Source of the DNA: Saprospiraceae bacterium
Lineage (GTDB): Bacteria > Bacteroidota > Bacteroidia > Chitinophagales > Saprospiraceae
Direction: 5' to 3'
Length of the DNA stretch: 54,270 nt
Assembly: GCA_016787345.1 (NCBI GenBank)
Contig: JAEUUU010000096.1
Span: 1 to 54,270 of the forward strand
Shown here: positions 3,903-21,764 of the stretch, piece by piece
How the letters are laid out: each line of letters begins with the position of its first letter
Numbering within the stretch: position 1 is the stretch's first letter
Made by a program: the position numbers and the translations under genes
Notes under the pieces: model-generated
Told to the model about the DNA's origin: nothing
What the model saw: only the letters and a program-made list of their open reading frames with translations
Database searches by the model: none

Positions 3903-5303
3903 TTACACAACAGCCCCCCTTAATTGCTCCAAACGTTCCCGTTTCGCCGCGTCGCGGTAGAACAGGTTCATCGTCTCGAAAGGGATGATCTTGTTGTCGT
4001 CGGGACTGACGATATGCACGCAGGATTTTTTGATGGCGCGCACGTCGAAGTCCCAGGCATCGATGAAACGCATGATGATGATGCGAAACAGGTTTTCGTA
4101 GCCCAGGGAAGGCGCATGCACTTGCGGCAGGCAGCACATCAGGCTCTGGTTCAGTTCGTTGGTGGCGCATTCGACCGAGTTGCCGGTGCTGAACAGCTGG
4201 ATCATGTGCTGGTGCAGGCGCTCGTCCTGTTCGTACACGATGGTATTGCGGGAGTTGTCGAGGATGTCCTGCGGGTTGATGAAACGGGTGAGCGGAAACA
4301 CTTCGCCGTCGATTTTCAGGGCATAGGCCATGGCCAGCGCGTCGGGGTTGCAGGGCACGGGGATGAGGTCTTCCGGCTGGAAAATCCCGGTTTGATCGAT
4401 GATCTGGCGGCGCACTTCGGTGAGCGTGATCCGGTCGGTGGCGGGGTTGAACCCTTCGAAGCGGCCGGCGGCTTGCGTGGGCTGGAAGGTGACGCCGCGA
4501 ACGCATTTTTGCTGAAGCGCGAAGCGGATGATCTCGCCGATTTCGTCGTCGTTCATGCCTTTTTGAAGGGTGACGACGAGGGTAGTCGAGAGGTTGAAGC
4601 GGTTGAGGTTTTCGAGCGCGCGCATCCGGGTGTCGAGCAGGTTTTCGCCCCGGAGGCTTTCCAGCACGCCGGGTCGGAAGGAATCGAACTGCAGGTAAAT
4701 TTCAAAATCAGGCATGTAGGAAGCGAGCCGCTCCGTAAAAACCGGGTCTTTGGCGATCCGGATGCCATTGGTATTCAGCATCAGGTGCCGGATGGGTTTG
4801 CGTTTGGCTATGTCGAGGATATCGAAAAACTGCGGATGCACCGTCGGTTCGCCCCCGCTGATCTGTACCACGTCGGGCTGGCCTTCGTTGGCCACAACGA
4901 GGTCGAGCATACGTTCGATTTCTTCCAGTGTGCGGTGCCGGCCGTGGTGCGGCGCCGATTCGGCGTAGCAGGTCGGGCAAGCCAGGTTGCAGCGGTCGGT
5001 CACCTCCACGATGGTCAGGCAGGAATGTTGTTCGTGGTCGGGGCAAAGTCCGCAATCGTACGGGCAACCGAAATGCGTACGGGTGTTGAATTTTTGGGGC
5101 ATTTCGCTGCGCTTGGCGTAGTTGCGCGTGGTGCGGTAATAATCGGCATCGGTAGCGATCAGCACCTTGGAGGCGCCGTGCTCCGGACAACGTTTGAGCA
5201 TGTAAACGTGCTGGTCCTCGATGATGATTTTGGCATCTACGCGGCGCAGACAATCGGGGCAAAGCGAGAGGGTAAAGTCGTAATAGATGTACGGACGTTC
5301 CAT
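3903..5303 (-). CDS. Radical SAM enzyme of the tetraether-lipid-synthase (Tes/MJ0619, COG1964) type
   Basis: The 466-residue protein has an N-terminal cysteine ribbon (C15-x2-C18, C39PEHG), then FGCPYDCGLCPDH (C80, C84, C87), an auxiliary cluster motif I associate with archaeal Tes/MJ0619 proteins. The radical SAM cluster motif CNLACPTC (C105, C109, C112), SGGEPTVHP for SAM binding, YLQFD, GVTFQPTQAAGR and QPEDLIPVPC follow, again close to the Tes pattern. C-terminal cysteines (MCCLPQVH, SCVHI) may hold another cluster. Archaeal Tes joins lipid alkyl chains through C-C bonds; the substrate of this bacterial protein is unknown. It is the last gene of a minus-strand operon with an Lgt-fold membrane protein, which suggests lipid or lipoprotein chemistry. 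The family call is strong, the function is inference. Confidence 0.88.
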   Translation of the reverse strand: MERPYIYYDFTLSLCPDCLRRVDAKIIIEDQHVYMLKRCPEHGASKVLIATDADYYRTTRNYAKRSEMPQKFNTRTHFGCPYDCGLCPDHEQHSCLTIVEVTDRCNLACPTCYAESAPHHGRHRTLEEIERMLDLVVANEGQPDVVQISGGEPTVHPQFFDILDIAKRKPIRHLMLNTNGIRIAKDPVFTERLASYMPDFEIYLQFDSFRPGVLESLRGENLLDTRMRALENLNRFNLSTTLVVTLQKGMNDDEIGEIIRFALQQKCVRGVTFQPTQAAGRFEGFNPATDRITLTEVRRQIIDQTGIFQPEDLIPVPCNPDALAMAYALKIDGEVFPLTRFINPQDILDNSRNTIVYEQDERLHQHMIQLFSTGNSVECATNELNQSLMCCLPQVHAPSLGYENLFRIIIMRFIDAWDFDVRAIKKSCVHIVSPDDNKIIPFETMNLFYRDAAKRERLEQLRGAVV

Positions 5304-5400
5304 AGGGGAATGTGGGAATGTGCTAATGTGCTAATGAGGGAATGTGCTAATGTGCTAATGTGACGGCAATCTTTGGTCGGAAGGGATCGCCCTGCCGCTA
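5304..5400. repeat. 8-base tandem words (GGGAATGT/GCTAATGT) in the operon gap
   Basis: From about 5306 to 5361 the words GGGAATGT and GCTAATGT (with variants such as GCTAATGA) run in phase with an 8-base period. They lie directly upstream of the radical SAM start, between it and the Lgt-like gene. There is no matching inverted arm in this gap. If the two genes are cotranscribed, the repeat is carried in the mRNA leader of the radical SAM gene. Confidence 0.7.
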
Positions 5401-6138
5401 CTACCGGAGAAAAAACGAGCCGATGGTTTTCCGGTAATACATCAGGCCGGCCAGCGCAGCCATTTGAATGCTCGACAGTCCAAAGGGGAAATACCAGGCT
5501 GGTTTGAGCCATTCGGCGGCGAATCGCCAGACAAGGTAGGCAATCATGAATATTTTGAACCGCAGGCCGTCGGGCAGTTTGCCGCGTTTTTCCTGCCGGT
5601 AAATCAGCAAGGCGATGGCGCCCAGCATGAGGATTTCATACAAATTGACCGGATGTCTCGGTATCCCGTCACCAAAATCGACCGCCCAGGGCAATCCGGA
5701 AGGCAAACCCTGGGTGCCGTCGGGCAGTCCGGCCAGATGGCAGCCCAGTCGGCCGATCGACAGCGACAACAAAATAGGGTAGGTCATCAGGTCGCCGGAA
5801 GAGGCCGTGACGCCGAGCATTTTTTTGGTCCATTCCACGCCGAACAGCCCTCCCAGAAAGCCGCCCAGTACGGTTTTATTGGCCATGAAATAAGCCAGAT
5901 CGAGCGAACTGCCCAGCGCTGCCGGCCGTTCGAGAATACCCAGCACATGGCTGCCCAGAAACGCGCCGGCCGCGGCGCCCAGCAGGATCCAGTTGCGGTG
6001 CTCGTCGCTGATGCGGTCGGTCGAGCGCCGCCGCAAACGGATATACAACTGATAACCGGCCGTGTAGGCCAGCATTTCGAACAACAGGTGGGCGTTCAGC
6101 CGGGCAGCGCCCAGGGTAATCTCCAGAGGATAGTGCAT
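5401..6138 (-). CDS. Lgt-fold integral membrane protein, non-canonical prolipoprotein diacylglyceryl transferase homologue
   Basis: The 245-residue protein has about seven predicted membrane segments and Lgt-family landmarks: NKTVLGGFLGGLFGVEW (88-103), GRLGCHLAGLPDG (129-141), HPVNLYEILML (162-172) and WRFAAEWLKP (204-213). Canonical Lgt moves a phosphatidylglycerol diacylglyceryl group to the lipobox cysteine. Here the arginine of the GRLGN signature is kept (R130), but the NFxNxE part is replaced by CHLAG, and the position of the essential histidine before GG (E. coli His103) appears to be leucine. It may therefore be a paralogue with another substrate. ATG 6138 is chosen because the first helix follows; the frame extends 40 codons further into the upstream gene. 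Upstream gene ends 14 bases away; the Tes-like radical SAM gene lies 97 bases downstream, suggesting shared lipid-related work. Confidence 0.8.
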   Translation of the reverse strand: MHYPLEITLGAARLNAHLLFEMLAYTAGYQLYIRLRRRSTDRISDEHRNWILLGAAAGAFLGSHVLGILERPAALGSSLDLAYFMANKTVLGGFLGGLFGVEWTKKMLGVTASSGDLMTYPILLSLSIGRLGCHLAGLPDGTQGLPSGLPWAVDFGDGIPRHPVNLYEILMLGAIALLIYRQEKRGKLPDGLRFKIFMIAYLVWRFAAEWLKPAWYFPFGLSSIQMAALAGLMYYRKTIGSFFLR

Positions 6139-6152
6139 GGCGGCAGGCGGGG

Positions 6153-6737
6153 TCAGGGCAGCTCGCCCTCGGCGCGAACCAGTTCGACGATTTCCGCTTC
6201 TTCGGGGAGGAAAAGGGTGAGCCGCCCGGCATCGAGGCGGATGATCTGGGCATCCCATTTGCCGTATGGCGCCAGGGCATTGGGTTGCCAGATGTCGAGG
6301 CTCATGGTGGCAGGGAAATATTCGTAGTGCCTTTTTTCGGGAAACAAGACCAGGCCTTCGGAGGTCTTGTTATAAGCCGAAAGCGTGCTGTCGGGGAAAA
6401 ACACGGCGAAATACGGCGTCCGGATCGCTTCGGCAATGCGGCGGGTTTCGGTGAGGCTGTCGAGTTCGGCCCAGCGCGCAAAGGCGCGGTTTTCACGGCG
6501 GTTCAGTTCGTTCCAGCGGGCGTCGTAGCCGTAAAATTGCCGGGCGCGTTCTTCGCGTACGTGTTCATACACCCGTCGGGCCTGGGCAAGGGCATCGCCC
6601 TTTTTATCTACCGGAATACCTTGTTCGGAATAGTTGACCACTTCCCAGCGGCCGAGCAGGGTAGGGGACGGCTGAACAGGGCGGCGACCCGACAAGGTAA
6701 ATATGCCGCAAACGAACAACAACAGGCAGAGTTTCAT
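6153..6737 (-). CDS. Small secreted protein, possibly lipocalin-like
   Basis: The protein has 194 residues, beginning with a signal-peptide-like segment (MKLCLLLFVCGIFTLSG). The next part, LLGRWEVVNYSEQG, resembles the opening strand of lipocalin-like domains (GxW), and the sequence ends in alternating strand-like stretches (AQIIRLDAGRLTLFLPEE). The middle is charged and helical (REERARQFYGYDARWNEL). I do not recognise a specific family. It is the first gene of the operon with the Lgt-fold protein and the radical SAM enzyme, ending 14 bases before the former. A one-mismatch -7 box (TAACCTTG, minus strand, 6770-6777) lies about 33 bases upstream. A lipid-binding role in the same pathway is possible but not shown. 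Confidence 0.65.
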   Translation of the reverse strand: MKLCLLLFVCGIFTLSGRRPVQPSPTLLGRWEVVNYSEQGIPVDKKGDALAQARRVYEHVREERARQFYGYDARWNELNRRENRAFARWAELDSLTETRRIAEAIRTPYFAVFFPDSTLSAYNKTSEGLVLFPEKRHYEYFPATMSLDIWQPNALAPYGKWDAQIIRLDAGRLTLFLPEEAEIVELVRAEGELP

Positions 6738-7425: not shown

Positions 7426-9213
7426 TCAATCCAGATCCTCCCCGGCCAGTTGTCTTTCAAACAGTTCGGCGTAGTACCCGCGCCGGGCCATCAGTTCCTC
7501 GTGCGTACCCTCCTCGGCAATGCTGTGATCGTCGCCCAGCACGATAATCTTGTCGAATTCCAGCGCGCCGTAGATGCGGTGGGTGATAATCACGGCTGTT
7601 TTGCCGGCCAGTGCTGTATTGAGGTAGCCGATAATCTGGCTTTCGGTATTGGTATCCACGGCGGAGAGGCAATCGTCGAGCAGCACGATGTCGGGTTGTT
7701 TGGCGAAGGCCCGGGCGATGCTGACGCGTTGTTTTTGTCCGCCGGAAAGCGTCACGCCGCGTTCGCCGACGATGGTGTCGTAGCCTTTGGGCAGCGACAT
7801 AATGTCGTCGTGTACGGCTGCGCTGCGGGCAAAATGTTCGGCCTGGGCGCGGGTGATGCCGTCTTGCCCGAAGGCGATATTGGCTTCCACGGTGTCGGAA
7901 AACAAGAACACGTCCTGTGGCACGTAGCCGATGCGGCGGCGCAGGTTGTGCAGGTCGAGTTGGCGCACGTCTTTGCCGTCGATCAGGATACGGCCCTCGC
8001 TGACGTCGTATAGCCGCACGAGCAGGTCGGCCACGGTCGTTTTGCCGCTGCCGGTGCGCCCGATGAGGGCCAGGCGCTGACCGGGTTGCACTTCAAACGA
8101 GACGTTGCGCAGGGCGGTGATACCGGTATCGGGATACACGAAACTGACCTTGTCGAAGCGGATATGCCCCCGGAGCGGTCTGGGGTCGTTCACCGGATTG
8201 GTGATGACGGGCTGCGTTTTCAGAAATTCATTGATCCGCTTTTGCGAAGCCGCTGCCTGCTGGGTCAGCGAAGAAATCCAGCCGATGGCCGTGACCGGCC
8301 AGGTGAGCATATTGATGTAAATGACAAACTGCGCAATCTTGCCCGGCGTGATGTTGCCAGCCACCACTTCGAGCCCGCCGACATACACCGTGAGAATGGT
8401 ACTGGTACCGATCAGCAACATCATCAGTGGAAAAAACACGGCATCGACGCTGATGAGCCGGAGTGATTTTTGGCGGTAAATTTCGGTTTGATCGGCAAAC
8501 CACGCGCCCATGGCTTTTTCCTGCGCATAACTTTTGACCACCCGGATGCCGCTGTACACCTCCTGCGCCGTGCTCGTCAGGGTAGCCAGTTGTTGCTGAA
8601 TGGTTTCGCTGCGCTTGTTGATGATATTACTCACCCAATAAATCGAAATACTGAGCAGCGGCAGCGGTAGCAGCGACCAAAGTGTGAGGGTCAGGCTCAC
8701 GTTGAGCATGGCGGAGATGGTGAGCACGAACAGAAAAATCAGGTCGAGCCCGTACAAAATCGTAGGCCCCAGGTACATCCGCACCTTGTTCACATCTTCC
8801 GAGATACGCGACATCAGGTCGCCGGTGCTGTGGCGTTTGTAAAAAGCCAGGTCGAGGGTTTCGTAATGGGAAAAAATTTCCTTGCGCAGGTCGTATTCGA
8901 TCAAACGGCTCATGACAATGATCGACTGCCGCATCAAAAACATAAACAACCCCATGGCCAGGGCCAGTCCGATCACCTGCAGGCCAAACCAGCCGATCTG
9001 TGTACCCAATTCCCGATACGCCTCCGGATGCGCCGCAATACCCCCGGTTTCATTGTAGTGTTTGACGTTGAAAATCACCGTGTCCAGCGCTTCGCCAATC
9101 ACCTGCGGCTGCCAGACCCGAAACCAGTTGACCAACCCGACAAACAGGATGCCCAGCAAAAAACGCCAGCGGTATTTCCAGAAAAATTTGTTGAGATATG
9201 CAAGGTGTTTCAT
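7426..9213 (-). CDS. ABC exporter half (fused membrane and ATPase domains), BmrC/YheI-like
   Basis: The 595-residue protein has a six-helix ABC exporter membrane domain (about 1-330) and a nucleotide-binding domain. Walker A GRTGSGKTT lies near residue 387, the Q-loop in YVPQDVFLFSD, the signature LSGGQ near 487, Walker B IVLLDD near 507, the D-loop SAVD and the H-loop in ITHRI. The residue after Walker B, normally the catalytic glutamate, is aspartate (LLDDCLSAVD). That change is typical of the degenerate-site subunit of heterodimeric exporters such as BmrC/BmrD and TM287/288. No partner gene is in this window. The substrate cannot be told from sequence; drugs or lipids are usual for the family. 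ogt follows 67 bases downstream. Confidence 0.93.
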   Translation of the reverse strand: MKHLAYLNKFFWKYRWRFLLGILFVGLVNWFRVWQPQVIGEALDTVIFNVKHYNETGGIAAHPEAYRELGTQIGWFGLQVIGLALAMGLFMFLMRQSIIVMSRLIEYDLRKEIFSHYETLDLAFYKRHSTGDLMSRISEDVNKVRMYLGPTILYGLDLIFLFVLTISAMLNVSLTLTLWSLLPLPLLSISIYWVSNIINKRSETIQQQLATLTSTAQEVYSGIRVVKSYAQEKAMGAWFADQTEIYRQKSLRLISVDAVFFPLMMLLIGTSTILTVYVGGLEVVAGNITPGKIAQFVIYINMLTWPVTAIGWISSLTQQAAASQKRINEFLKTQPVITNPVNDPRPLRGHIRFDKVSFVYPDTGITALRNVSFEVQPGQRLALIGRTGSGKTTVADLLVRLYDVSEGRILIDGKDVRQLDLHNLRRRIGYVPQDVFLFSDTVEANIAFGQDGITRAQAEHFARSAAVHDDIMSLPKGYDTIVGERGVTLSGGQKQRVSIARAFAKQPDIVLLDDCLSAVDTNTESQIIGYLNTALAGKTAVIITHRIYGALEFDKIIVLGDDHSIAEEGTHEELMARRGYYAELFERQLAGEDLD

Positions 9214-9219
9214 AGCAAA

Positions 9220-9500
9220 GCAGGTGTTGGGTGTTGGGTTTTAGGTTTTGGGTTTTGGCAAAAGGGTTGCTGCTGCTCTCGGATATGGTTTTGGGTTTTA
9301 GGTTTTAGGTTTTTGGCAAAAGGGTTGTTACTGCTCTCGGATATGGTTTTGGGTTTTAGGTTTTAGGTTTTGGGTTTTTGGCAAAAGGGTTGTTACTGCT
9401 CTCGGATAGCGCTTCGGATTCGGTAAGTAATAATCTGCTGCTCGCCATGGTTTCCGAGAGCAGGAATACCCCTTTTGCCAAAACCCAAAACCCAACCCCC
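9220..9500. repeat. Three direct copies of a TTTTGGG-rich unit plus an inverted closing copy
   Basis: The gap holds 7-base-period words (GTGTTGG, GTTTTAG, GTTTTGG) leading into the core TTGGCAAAAGGGTTG followed by CTGCTCTCGGATA. The core occurs three times, at about 9255-9288, 9313-9345 and 9378-9411. An inverted partial copy closes the block at about 9453-9496 (CCGAGAGCAGG...TTTTGCCAAAACCC). Between copy three and the inverted copy lie about 42 unique bases. The whole forms a large imperfect hairpin between the VanX-like and ABC exporter genes. No coding sequence is evident. Confidence 0.85.
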
Positions 9501-20658: not shown

Positions 20659-21405
20659 ATGACGAACCGACTCTCCGGCCGCACGGCCGTTGTCACCGGC
20701 GGCGCCAGCGGTATTGGCCGCGCCACGGTTTTGCGATTTTTGCAGGAAGGCGCCCGGGTAGCGATCTGGGACGTACAGGCCGATCGCGGCCGCGCGCTCG
20801 AAGCCGAATGTCGGGCGCAGGGCCTGCCCGCCCGCTTTTTCGAGGTCAATACTACCGATGCCGCGGCCGTACACGAGGCCGCCCGGCTGACGCACGAAGC
20901 CTTCGGCAGCCTGGATATTCTGGTCAATAACGCGGGCATCACGCGCGATTCCACCCTCAAAAAAATGAGCCCCGAACAATGGGACCTCGTCATCGCCGTC
21001 AACCTCACCGGCGTATTTCACTGTACCCATGCCGCCTACCCGTACATGGAAGCCGGCGGCTGGGGGCGCGTGCTCACAGCCGCCTCAGTGGTGGGGCTAT
21101 ACGGCAATTTCGGCCAAACCAACTACGCCGCTACCAAAGGCGGGGTGATCGCCATGACCAAGGTGTGGGCCAAGGAATTCGGCCGCAAAGGCATCACCGC
21201 CAATGCCGTCGCCCCGGGCTTTATCCGCACCGAAATGACCGATATGCTGCCCGAAAACGTACTCAAAACCATGCAGGAAAAAGCCCCCGCCAACCGCCTC
21301 GGCACCGTCGAGGAGGTCGCCGCCGCCTATGCCTTCCTCGCCTCCGACGAAGCCGCCTTCATCAACGGCGCCGTGTTGAGCGTGGACGGAGGACTGACGT
21401 TGTGA
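20659..21405 (+). CDS. Short-chain dehydrogenase/reductase, FabG-like (3-oxoacyl-ACP reductase type)
   Basis: The 248-residue SDR has the NAD(P)-binding TGGASGIG loop (13-20), NNAG after strand four and the Ser-Tyr-Lys triad in TAASVVGLYGNFGQTNYAATK (Ser ~142, Tyr ~156, Lys ~160), ending INGAVLSVDGGLTL like FabG. It reduces a 3-oxo group with NAD(P)H; 3-oxoacyl-ACP or acetoacetyl-CoA are likely substrates, but SDR substrate calls are uncertain. ATG 20659 is chosen because a -7 box lies just upstream and the family N-terminus starts there. It is a single gene, followed by a long block of 8-base repeats. Confidence 0.88.
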   Translation: MTNRLSGRTAVVTGGASGIGRATVLRFLQEGARVAIWDVQADRGRALEAECRAQGLPARFFEVNTTDAAAVHEAARLTHEAFGSLDILVNNAGITRDSTLKKMSPEQWDLVIAVNLTGVFHCTHAAYPYMEAGGWGRVLTAASVVGLYGNFGQTNYAATKGGVIAMTKVWAKEFGRKGITANAVAPGFIRTEMTDMLPENVLKTMQEKAPANRLGTVEEVAAAYAFLASDEAAFINGAVLSVDGGLTL

Positions 21406-21764
21406 TTGGACGATTGGGCGATTGAACGATTGGACGATTGAACGATTGGACGATTGAACGATTGGGCGATTGAACGATTGAACGATTGAACGATTGAACG
21501 ATTGGACGATTGAACGATTGAACGATTGGCCTCCCCCAACCCCTCCACAGGAGGGGAGCGGATCGGAAGGCATTTTTGATTGATTTTCACAGATCTGTAA
21601 TTGGTTTGTAGAGCCTCTTCTTTCAAATTGAGTCCATTAAACCAGAATCGTCCTTTGCGATCGAGTCACACCAATCGTTCAATCGCCCAATCGTTCAATC
21701 GTTCAATCGTTCAATCGTTCAATCGCCCAATCGTCCAATCCTCCAATCGTCTTATCTTCGGCCC
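21406..21764. repeat. 8-base tandem ACGATTG words in inverted arms around a unique core
   Basis: From 21408 to about 21530 the word AACGATTG and variants (GACGATTG, GGCGATTG) repeat about 15 times in 8-base phase. The core (21531-21672) starts with a small hairpin, CCCCTCC-ACA-GGAGGGG at 21540-21556. From about 21674 to 21745 the same words return in inverted orientation (CAATCGTT, CAATCGCC). Folded, the arms would make a hairpin of 70 or more bases. This 359-base gap has no gene. A one-mismatch -7 box (TATCTTCG, 21750-21757) lies just before the next ATG. Confidence 0.85.

Follow-up and report, generated by a model that had tools for sequence, protein, structure and literature searches.

A conserved module of a Tes-superfamily radical SAM protein, an Lgt-fold membrane protein and small membrane proteins bearing a cysteine motif at the C-terminus in Bacteroidota

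Among the closest described relatives of the radical S-adenosylmethionine (SAM) protein considered here are the archaeal tetraether lipid synthases (Tes/GDGT-MAS), represented by MJ0619 (PDB 7TOL/7TOM). MJ0619 holds a rubredoxin site, C9X2C12X20C33X2H36, and Tyr459 of Tes is conserved in 1,000 archaeal homologues (PMC9433317). Homologues also occur in bacteria not known for biphytanyl chains, and Lloyd et al. presented their work as a roadmap to the roles of these proteins (PMC9433317). Zeng et al. reported 456 bacterial homologues and suggested synthesis of branched glycerol dialkyl glycerol tetraethers (brGDGTs) (PMC8941075), and Tes matches in bacterial metagenome-assembled genomes have been taken as possible brGDGT potential (PMC11868695). 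Bacterial Mss is alike by description, with a proposed coupling of lipid chains and a catalytic architecture of Tes that is reported to be kept (PMC13274423), and the radical SAM (seleno)protein TrsS is named in a review table (PMC13188914). The nearest concept in print is that of the diacylglyceryl-modified ribosomally synthesised and post-translationally modified peptides (DAG-RiPPs), in which a small peptide, cysteine lipidation and a metalloenzyme likewise come together; DAG-RiPPs carry an N-terminal lipobox and depend on an MNIO enzyme together with the general lipoprotein pathway (PMC12636315); in the module described here, by contrast, the cysteine is C-terminal, the Lgt paralogue is dedicated and the radical SAM protein is of the Tes type. 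The starting point was a stretch of 54,270 nucleotides from a Saprospiraceae bacterium (contig C158, JAEUUU010000096.1, one of the 191 contigs of a 5.3 Mb genome), hereafter the window. MAGs of Saprospiraceae and Chitinophagales are its nearest named relatives, in keeping with the phylum Bacteroidota.

We know of no Lgt partner of Mss, and a set of radical SAM protein, Lgt and small protein was not found in a literature search of titles and abstracts, a search with most subscription journals outside its coverage. The module, in terms of its three parts, their linkage and their co-occurrence, is well supported. The third part, which the initial annotation of the window overlooked, is a small membrane protein that carries a cysteine motif at its C-terminus and is frequently present in multiple copies. 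Our preferred reading, to which we give a little less than an even chance, is a three-component membrane modification system in which the small protein would be the substrate, the Lgt-like enzyme would lipidate its cysteine and the radical SAM protein would couple the chain. The two enzyme genes in the window are as follows.

3903..5303, minus strand: Tes-superfamily radical SAM protein, 466 aa (sequence, profile and structure matches)
5401..6138, minus strand: membrane protein of the Lgt fold, 245 aa, start most probably at 6138 (Pfam, structure model, start comparison)

The Lgt-like gene comes first in the direction of transcription, and the gap of about 100 bases before the radical SAM gene contains a tandem repeat. 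Among 80 loci fetched by radical SAM similarity, an Lgt-like gene lay inside the fetched stretch in 74 and was the preceding open reading frame (ORF) in 65. A recurring Lgt-like partner in Bacteroidota thus exists, and the pair at the heart of the three-gene system initially proposed is real, whereas the secreted upstream gene assigned to it has a relative in one locus only (see below). Sixty genomes of relatives included 21 carriers of the radical SAM gene, and 18 same-genus non-carriers among the sixty served as the comparison; the Lgt-like gene occurred in 19/21 carriers and 0/18 non-carriers (n = 39; Fisher p 3e-9). The two carriers lacking it are genomes 82% and 84% complete, and the two genes were split over different contigs in four carriers (G005, G012, G026, G029). 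Across 392 genomes of the phylum, the zinc ribbon family PF23545 was present in 36, comprising 32 of this radical SAM branch, three Tes-like (G124, G360, G445) and one sub-threshold fragment (G298, a 137-residue frame below the cut-off), and the last four were set aside. The Lgt-like gene was found in 32/32 genomes of the branch and in one further genome, G075. This co-occurrence gives p 3e-46; counting the four set-aside genomes as radical SAM carriers (both genes 32, radical SAM alone 4, Lgt-like alone 1) changes it to 2e-41. Neither these p-values nor the one given above take relatedness into account. The line for an Lgt-like match, E ≤ 1e-15, was drawn post hoc after a gap from 3.1e-18 to 1.9e-12 was seen, and nine genomes with weaker matches were excluded as probable ordinary Lgt. 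These results support a functional link between the radical SAM and Lgt-like proteins. The solitary Lgt-like gene of G075 (L193:5653-6498, minus strand) may reflect solo use or loss.

In most loci the radical SAM gene is followed downstream by a gene for a small hydrophobic protein that has a cysteine close to its C-terminus. As a rule these proteins are ~50–130 aa long, and the last helix usually ends G[F/L][G/S]xC. A first scan, anchored on the radical SAM match coordinates, found one in 76/80 loci; for the 78 loci with enough sequence, a looser rule gave 76/78 against 50/1020 control segments, and an added hydrophobicity bound gave 75/78 against 8/1020. A second scan with other rules, covering up to 1.5 kb downstream in a later set of 113 radical SAM loci (three of them Tes-like), recovered a G-x-C protein in 99/113, compared with 21/1160 control segments and 2/113 in antisense. 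Two to four copies were present in 40 of the 99 loci. With the narrower motif [GSA][FLYIV][GSA]xC, at least two copies remained in 35/40 multi-copy loci and at least one in 93/99 loci, and at least one second-scan copy (the third of L269) is spurious. Features that the scan does not impose were conserved as well, namely I/V at −5 in 135/146 and F/L at −3 in 127/146 proteins. In 76 proteins, the last K/R stood a median of 16 residues from the cysteine, the 12 residues before carried a mean charge of +3.2, and the conserved cysteine lay a median of six residues from the C-terminus, unlike the N-terminal lipobox cysteine of DAG-RiPPs and lipoproteins.

Fourteen loci failed the second scan. Three are Tes-like (L190–L192), seven have a small protein elsewhere in the locus (L195, L196, L197, L207, L209, L210, L245), the protein of L038 misses the K/R rule, L032 has its copy on another contig, and L043 and L199 make up the rest. 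The genome of L032 is that of the sister G025, where the small protein is away from the radical SAM gene and inside that contig; in the window genome it is encoded on contig C145 (19240-19566), near the contig end, and terminates in GFGLCIGKASVLG. An alignment of eight small proteins showed the cysteine as invariant, and otherwise only the start Met and one Phe. A hidden Markov model (HMM) of this alignment (E ≤ 1e-9) detected the protein in 17/19 same-genus carriers and 1/18 non-carriers, a weak match in the further non-carrier G014 (E 0.044) being uncounted. In the non-carrier G030, which has neither the radical SAM nor the Lgt-like gene, the small-protein copy ends TGFIVLFDKVG and has no cysteine. 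Among 199 Flavobacterium genomes, 30 held the radical SAM gene; a second model (HMM A4) found the small protein in 15 genomes, all carriers, and direct inspection revealed one to four small proteins in each of the remaining 15 carriers, so this model is too narrow. None of eight small proteins scanned matched a Pfam family above its cut-off.

The C-terminal sequence also bears on a redox or metal system, in which the small proteins would bind a metal or a thiol partner through the cysteine, and some of them also through a C-terminal Met-His, and the radical SAM protein, like TrsS, would make a cofactor. TrsS is the nearest named model, and a Met-His ending, frequently preceded by L-G-x, is present in 14/146 small proteins (in Flavobacterium, Mucilaginibacter and Filimonas loci). 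The other 132 copies lack this ending, and the eight-row alignment holds no second invariant ligand residue. Of the neighbour clusters, those of the radical SAM and Lgt-like proteins are the only ones shared by most loci, the rest of the recurring clusters being unannotated. We consider such a system very improbable.

The radical SAM protein carries the following sites.

5178..5261, minus strand: rubredoxin-type metal site C15X2C18X20C39X2H42 (sequence; 81-row alignment; MJ0619 ligands)
5034..5066, minus strand: N-terminal auxiliary cluster site C80X3C84X2C87X2H90 (81-row alignment; MJ0619 ligands)
4968..4991, minus strand: radical SAM cluster motif C105X3C109X2C112 (81-row alignment; Pfam)
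4020..4352, minus strand: C-terminal cluster region with C318 (IPVPC318), C390, C391, C428 and M411 (Met439-equivalent)

The initial annotation had called this protein Tes-type from a cysteine ribbon, an auxiliary motif, CNLACPTC and IPVPC, and all of these motifs were confirmed. When the window protein was aligned with those of the 80 fetched loci (81 rows), the ligands of the rubredoxin, N-terminal cluster and radical SAM sites and C318 of IPVPC were each at least 98% conserved; C318, C390, C391 and C428 were invariant. Two smaller alignments, A1 with 26 Lgt-like rows and A2 with 25 radical SAM rows (three of them Tes-like), were also used, and C390 and C391 are absent in the five most distant rows of A2. 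Tes-superfamily architecture, the fold and the ligands of these three sites stand, and assignment to Tes itself is not supported: the highest-scoring NCBIfam model was TrsS (NF045646; 336.2 bits over near full length, cut-off 490), followed by Tes (NF045702; 295.4 bits, cut-off 450). The protein scored above the cut-offs of both PF04055 (Radical_SAM) and PF23545 (HMPTM zinc ribbon). Its top PDB sequence match was GDGT-MAS 7tol (E 3.3e-68, or 1.5e-129 with profile A2). A structure model built from A2 (pLDDT 82.4, pTM 0.86; residues 370–399 of low confidence) agreed with the MJ0619 crystal structure in Foldseek (E 1.7e-35 and TM 0.78/0.73 for 7tom; 7tom and 7tol both at E about 2e-35 with TM 0.78), where 3/25 rows behind the model are Tes-like; the next fold was the RiPP maturase SkfB (E 1.7e-9). 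The protein resembles Tes in fold, in rubredoxin and N-terminal cluster ligands and in the radical SAM motif. In the putative C-terminal cluster, M411 aligns with the labile Met439 of Tes and C428 also aligns, these two being the positions that could be matched. The protein differs from Tes in its 30% identity, in a C-terminal domain with C390 and C391, in Ile431 at the position of Tyr459 (Tyr in the three Tes-like rows) and in its Lgt-like partner. By analogy with Tes, it may couple lipid chains between sp3 carbons.

This fold could also serve the synthesis of a free lipid, in which the radical SAM and Lgt-like proteins would make an unusual membrane lipid (e.g., with cross-linked acyl chains) and the small proteins would be accessory subunits or scaffolds. 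Tes makes membrane-spanning lipids (PMC9433317), bacterial Mss is reported to do likewise (PMC13274423), and the fold here is the same as that of Tes. Several copies per locus and an invariant C-terminal cysteine would be odd for a scaffold, and the Tes-like genomes G124, G360 and G445 have no Lgt-like match at E ≤ 1e-10; we regard this explanation as unlikely. The radical SAM proteins of these three genomes are 26–30% identical to that of the window, that of G124 (493.8 bits) exceeding the Tes cut-off and the other two falling just under it. The proteins of G360 (L148) and G445 (L156) lack the N-terminal cluster cysteines, and their genomes have no Lgt-like gene.

Two segments of the Lgt-like protein align with residues of Lgt.

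5740..5754, minus strand: GRLGC motif, with Lgt R143 retained and N146 replaced by C133 (profile alignment to 5azb)
5512..5538, minus strand: Y201, R205 and E209, equivalent to Lgt Y235, R239 and E243 (profile alignment to 5azb)

The Lgt fold proposed for this protein was borne out by PF01790 (56.9 bits, cut-off 24.9) and by a structure model (pLDDT 92.8) whose sole Foldseek match at E ≤ 0.001 was 5azb (E 1.4e-6). The TIGR00544 equivalog score, obtained with a longer ORF, was 24.1 bits, below the cut-off of 118.9. That longer ORF, starting at 6258, was rejected since it overlaps the upstream gene and many relatives start at a position comparable to 6138. In Escherichia coli Lgt, Y26, H103, R143, N146, G154 and R239 are absolutely required (PMC13251419). 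The window protein retains three of the six (R143, G154, R239) and carries Y26H, H103L and N146C. R143, G154, Y235 and R239 were retained in 26/26 rows of A1, whereas the Y26 position was His in 24/26 (Tyr in L195 and L197), the H103 position was aliphatic, Ala, Met or Thr in all 26, and the N146 position was Cys in all 26. A second Mycobacterium smegmatis Lgt homologue has both Y26H and N146C (PMC13251419). The window genome itself holds another Lgt, which matches PF01790 more strongly (125 bits) and in which, read by eye, position 146 is Cys and position 103 Tyr, and N146C was accordingly rejected as a hallmark of the Lgt-like enzyme. Diacylglyceryl transfer to a cysteine, the reaction of Lgt, is for this protein a candidate activity.

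The incomplete catalytic set could also fit peptide maturation, with the Lgt-fold protein only binding or presenting the small protein and the radical SAM protein modifying it in the manner of radical SAM RiPPs (e.g., through a thioether formed at G-x-C). Small multi-copy genes beside a radical SAM gene, SkfB as the next fold after GDGT-MAS and the missing H103 and Y26 are all consistent with this. The lipid enzyme GDGT-MAS is nevertheless by far the best fold, and R143, G154 and R239 are retained in every row; we consider peptide maturation distinctly unlikely.

The module also extends beyond these loci. A plasmid collection contained nine records with a relative of the radical SAM protein. 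Four of them (Persicobacter, M. branderi, M. avium and Nonomuraea) hold, as far as read, an Lgt-family gene and small membrane G-x-C proteins, so that the same trio occurs on two mycobacterial plasmids and in Nonomuraea, whose small protein is a 45% match to that of M. branderi. In the other five (Mycolicibacterium and four haloarchaea), a methyltransferase gene adjoins the radical SAM gene, and no annotated Lgt gene was present in the stretch shown; the two of these proteins that were scored are nearest TrsS, also below its cut-off. In a maximum-likelihood tree of 34 radical SAM proteins, a branch with weak support (77/84) separated the 26 with an Lgt partner from the eight others, namely three Tes-like proteins and five with a methyltransferase partner; long branches are involved in several of the joins. 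Locus L195, a distant one, has the gene order radical SAM, ICMT family, DUF4395-like, Lgt-like and small protein. ICMT-family genes stand in the module at L195:4784-5374 (plus strand) and L197:5946-6491 (plus strand; 41% match by tblastn), and L245 has a DUF4395-like gene (39%). Eukaryotic ICMT members methylate an S-lipidated C-terminal cysteine.

Returning to the three-component system, several small-gene copies beside single enzyme genes suggest that the small proteins are substrates, and copy number, the loss of the cysteine in G030 and the ICMT genes all point to the cysteine as the modified site. The substrate would be small and polytopic, its last helix starting at a loop of positive charge, presumably on the cytoplasmic side, and leading to the cysteine. 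Given this positive loop, the invariant cysteine would sit near the outer leaflet, where Lgt works, as though the geometry of a lipoprotein signal peptide had been shifted to the C-terminus. The dedicated Lgt-fold enzyme would attach a lipid to this cysteine (S-lipidation), and the Tes-type radical SAM protein might then link the hydrophobic chain through a C–C or C–S bond, either with another chain or with the protein itself. The topology, the substrate role of the small protein and the two reactions with their order are our inference. The initial proposal of a lipid or lipid-anchored target is still a good hypothesis, now pointed at the small-protein cysteine. A bolder version is an inverted form of lipoprotein-like lipidation, previously undescribed, in which a dedicated Lgt paralogue would lipidate a C-terminal cysteine and the radical SAM protein would couple the unactivated lipid chain, with a further chain or the protein as its partner, to give a covalently stapled, possibly membrane-spanning lipoprotein; this is conceivable but rather doubtful.

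Several observations weigh against the three-component system. The scans select for G-x-C, hydrophobicity and, in the second, an upstream K/R, and the conservation of the small protein is thus partly imposed; a downstream small protein was not found in L043 and L199. At the position preceding the cysteine, I, T and V predominate, unlike the G, A or S of classical lipoboxes. Loss of the cysteine was seen in one copy only, ICMT genes are present in just two of the fetched loci, and one genome, G075, carries the Lgt-like gene alone. The radical SAM protein is predicted to be cytoplasmic and the cysteine to be near the outer leaflet. Additionally, the Tyr459 position of Tes is altered and residues 370–399 are not reliably modelled, and the absence of H103 and Y26 means that diacylglyceryl transfer may not be the reaction of the Lgt-like enzyme.

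With these findings, one bacterial GDGT-MAS-like branch can be assigned a definite set of partners and a candidate substrate in which a single cysteine is invariant, and a role is offered for Lgt paralogues with an incomplete catalytic set. The single candidate cysteine and the presence of carriers in culturable genera (Flavobacterium, Mucilaginibacter) make the question directly testable by mass spectrometry. Our results also advise caution, as Tes-like matches in Bacteroidota need not mark producers of membrane-spanning lipids.

Upstream of the Lgt-like gene lies one further ORF.

6153..6737, minus strand: secreted-looking ORF, 194 aa, with a signal-like N-terminal stretch, outside the conserved module

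The initial annotation had counted this ORF as a small secreted, possibly lipocalin-like member of the system. The signal-like start was seen; nothing shows a likeness to lipocalins, and no Pfam match was obtained at E ≤ 1. A tblastn search (E 1e-4) found a relative in 1/80 fetched loci, L032, whose radical SAM protein is 99% identical to that of the window, and the ORF was therefore rejected as the third component.

Short repeats were observed at several places in the window. At 5309-5362, a tandem repeat of the 8-base unit AATGTGCT, with a 24-base superunit, takes up half of the space that separates the Lgt-like gene from the radical SAM gene. About three copies of 58–65 base repeats rich in GGTTTTA/GGTTTTG occupy 9223-9408, just past the ORF end of the gene at 7426-9213. 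Two neighbouring arrays of 8-base units lie further along, one at 21404-21528 (~16 copies of GATTGAAC) and the other at 21672-21750 (~10 copies of CAATCGTT).

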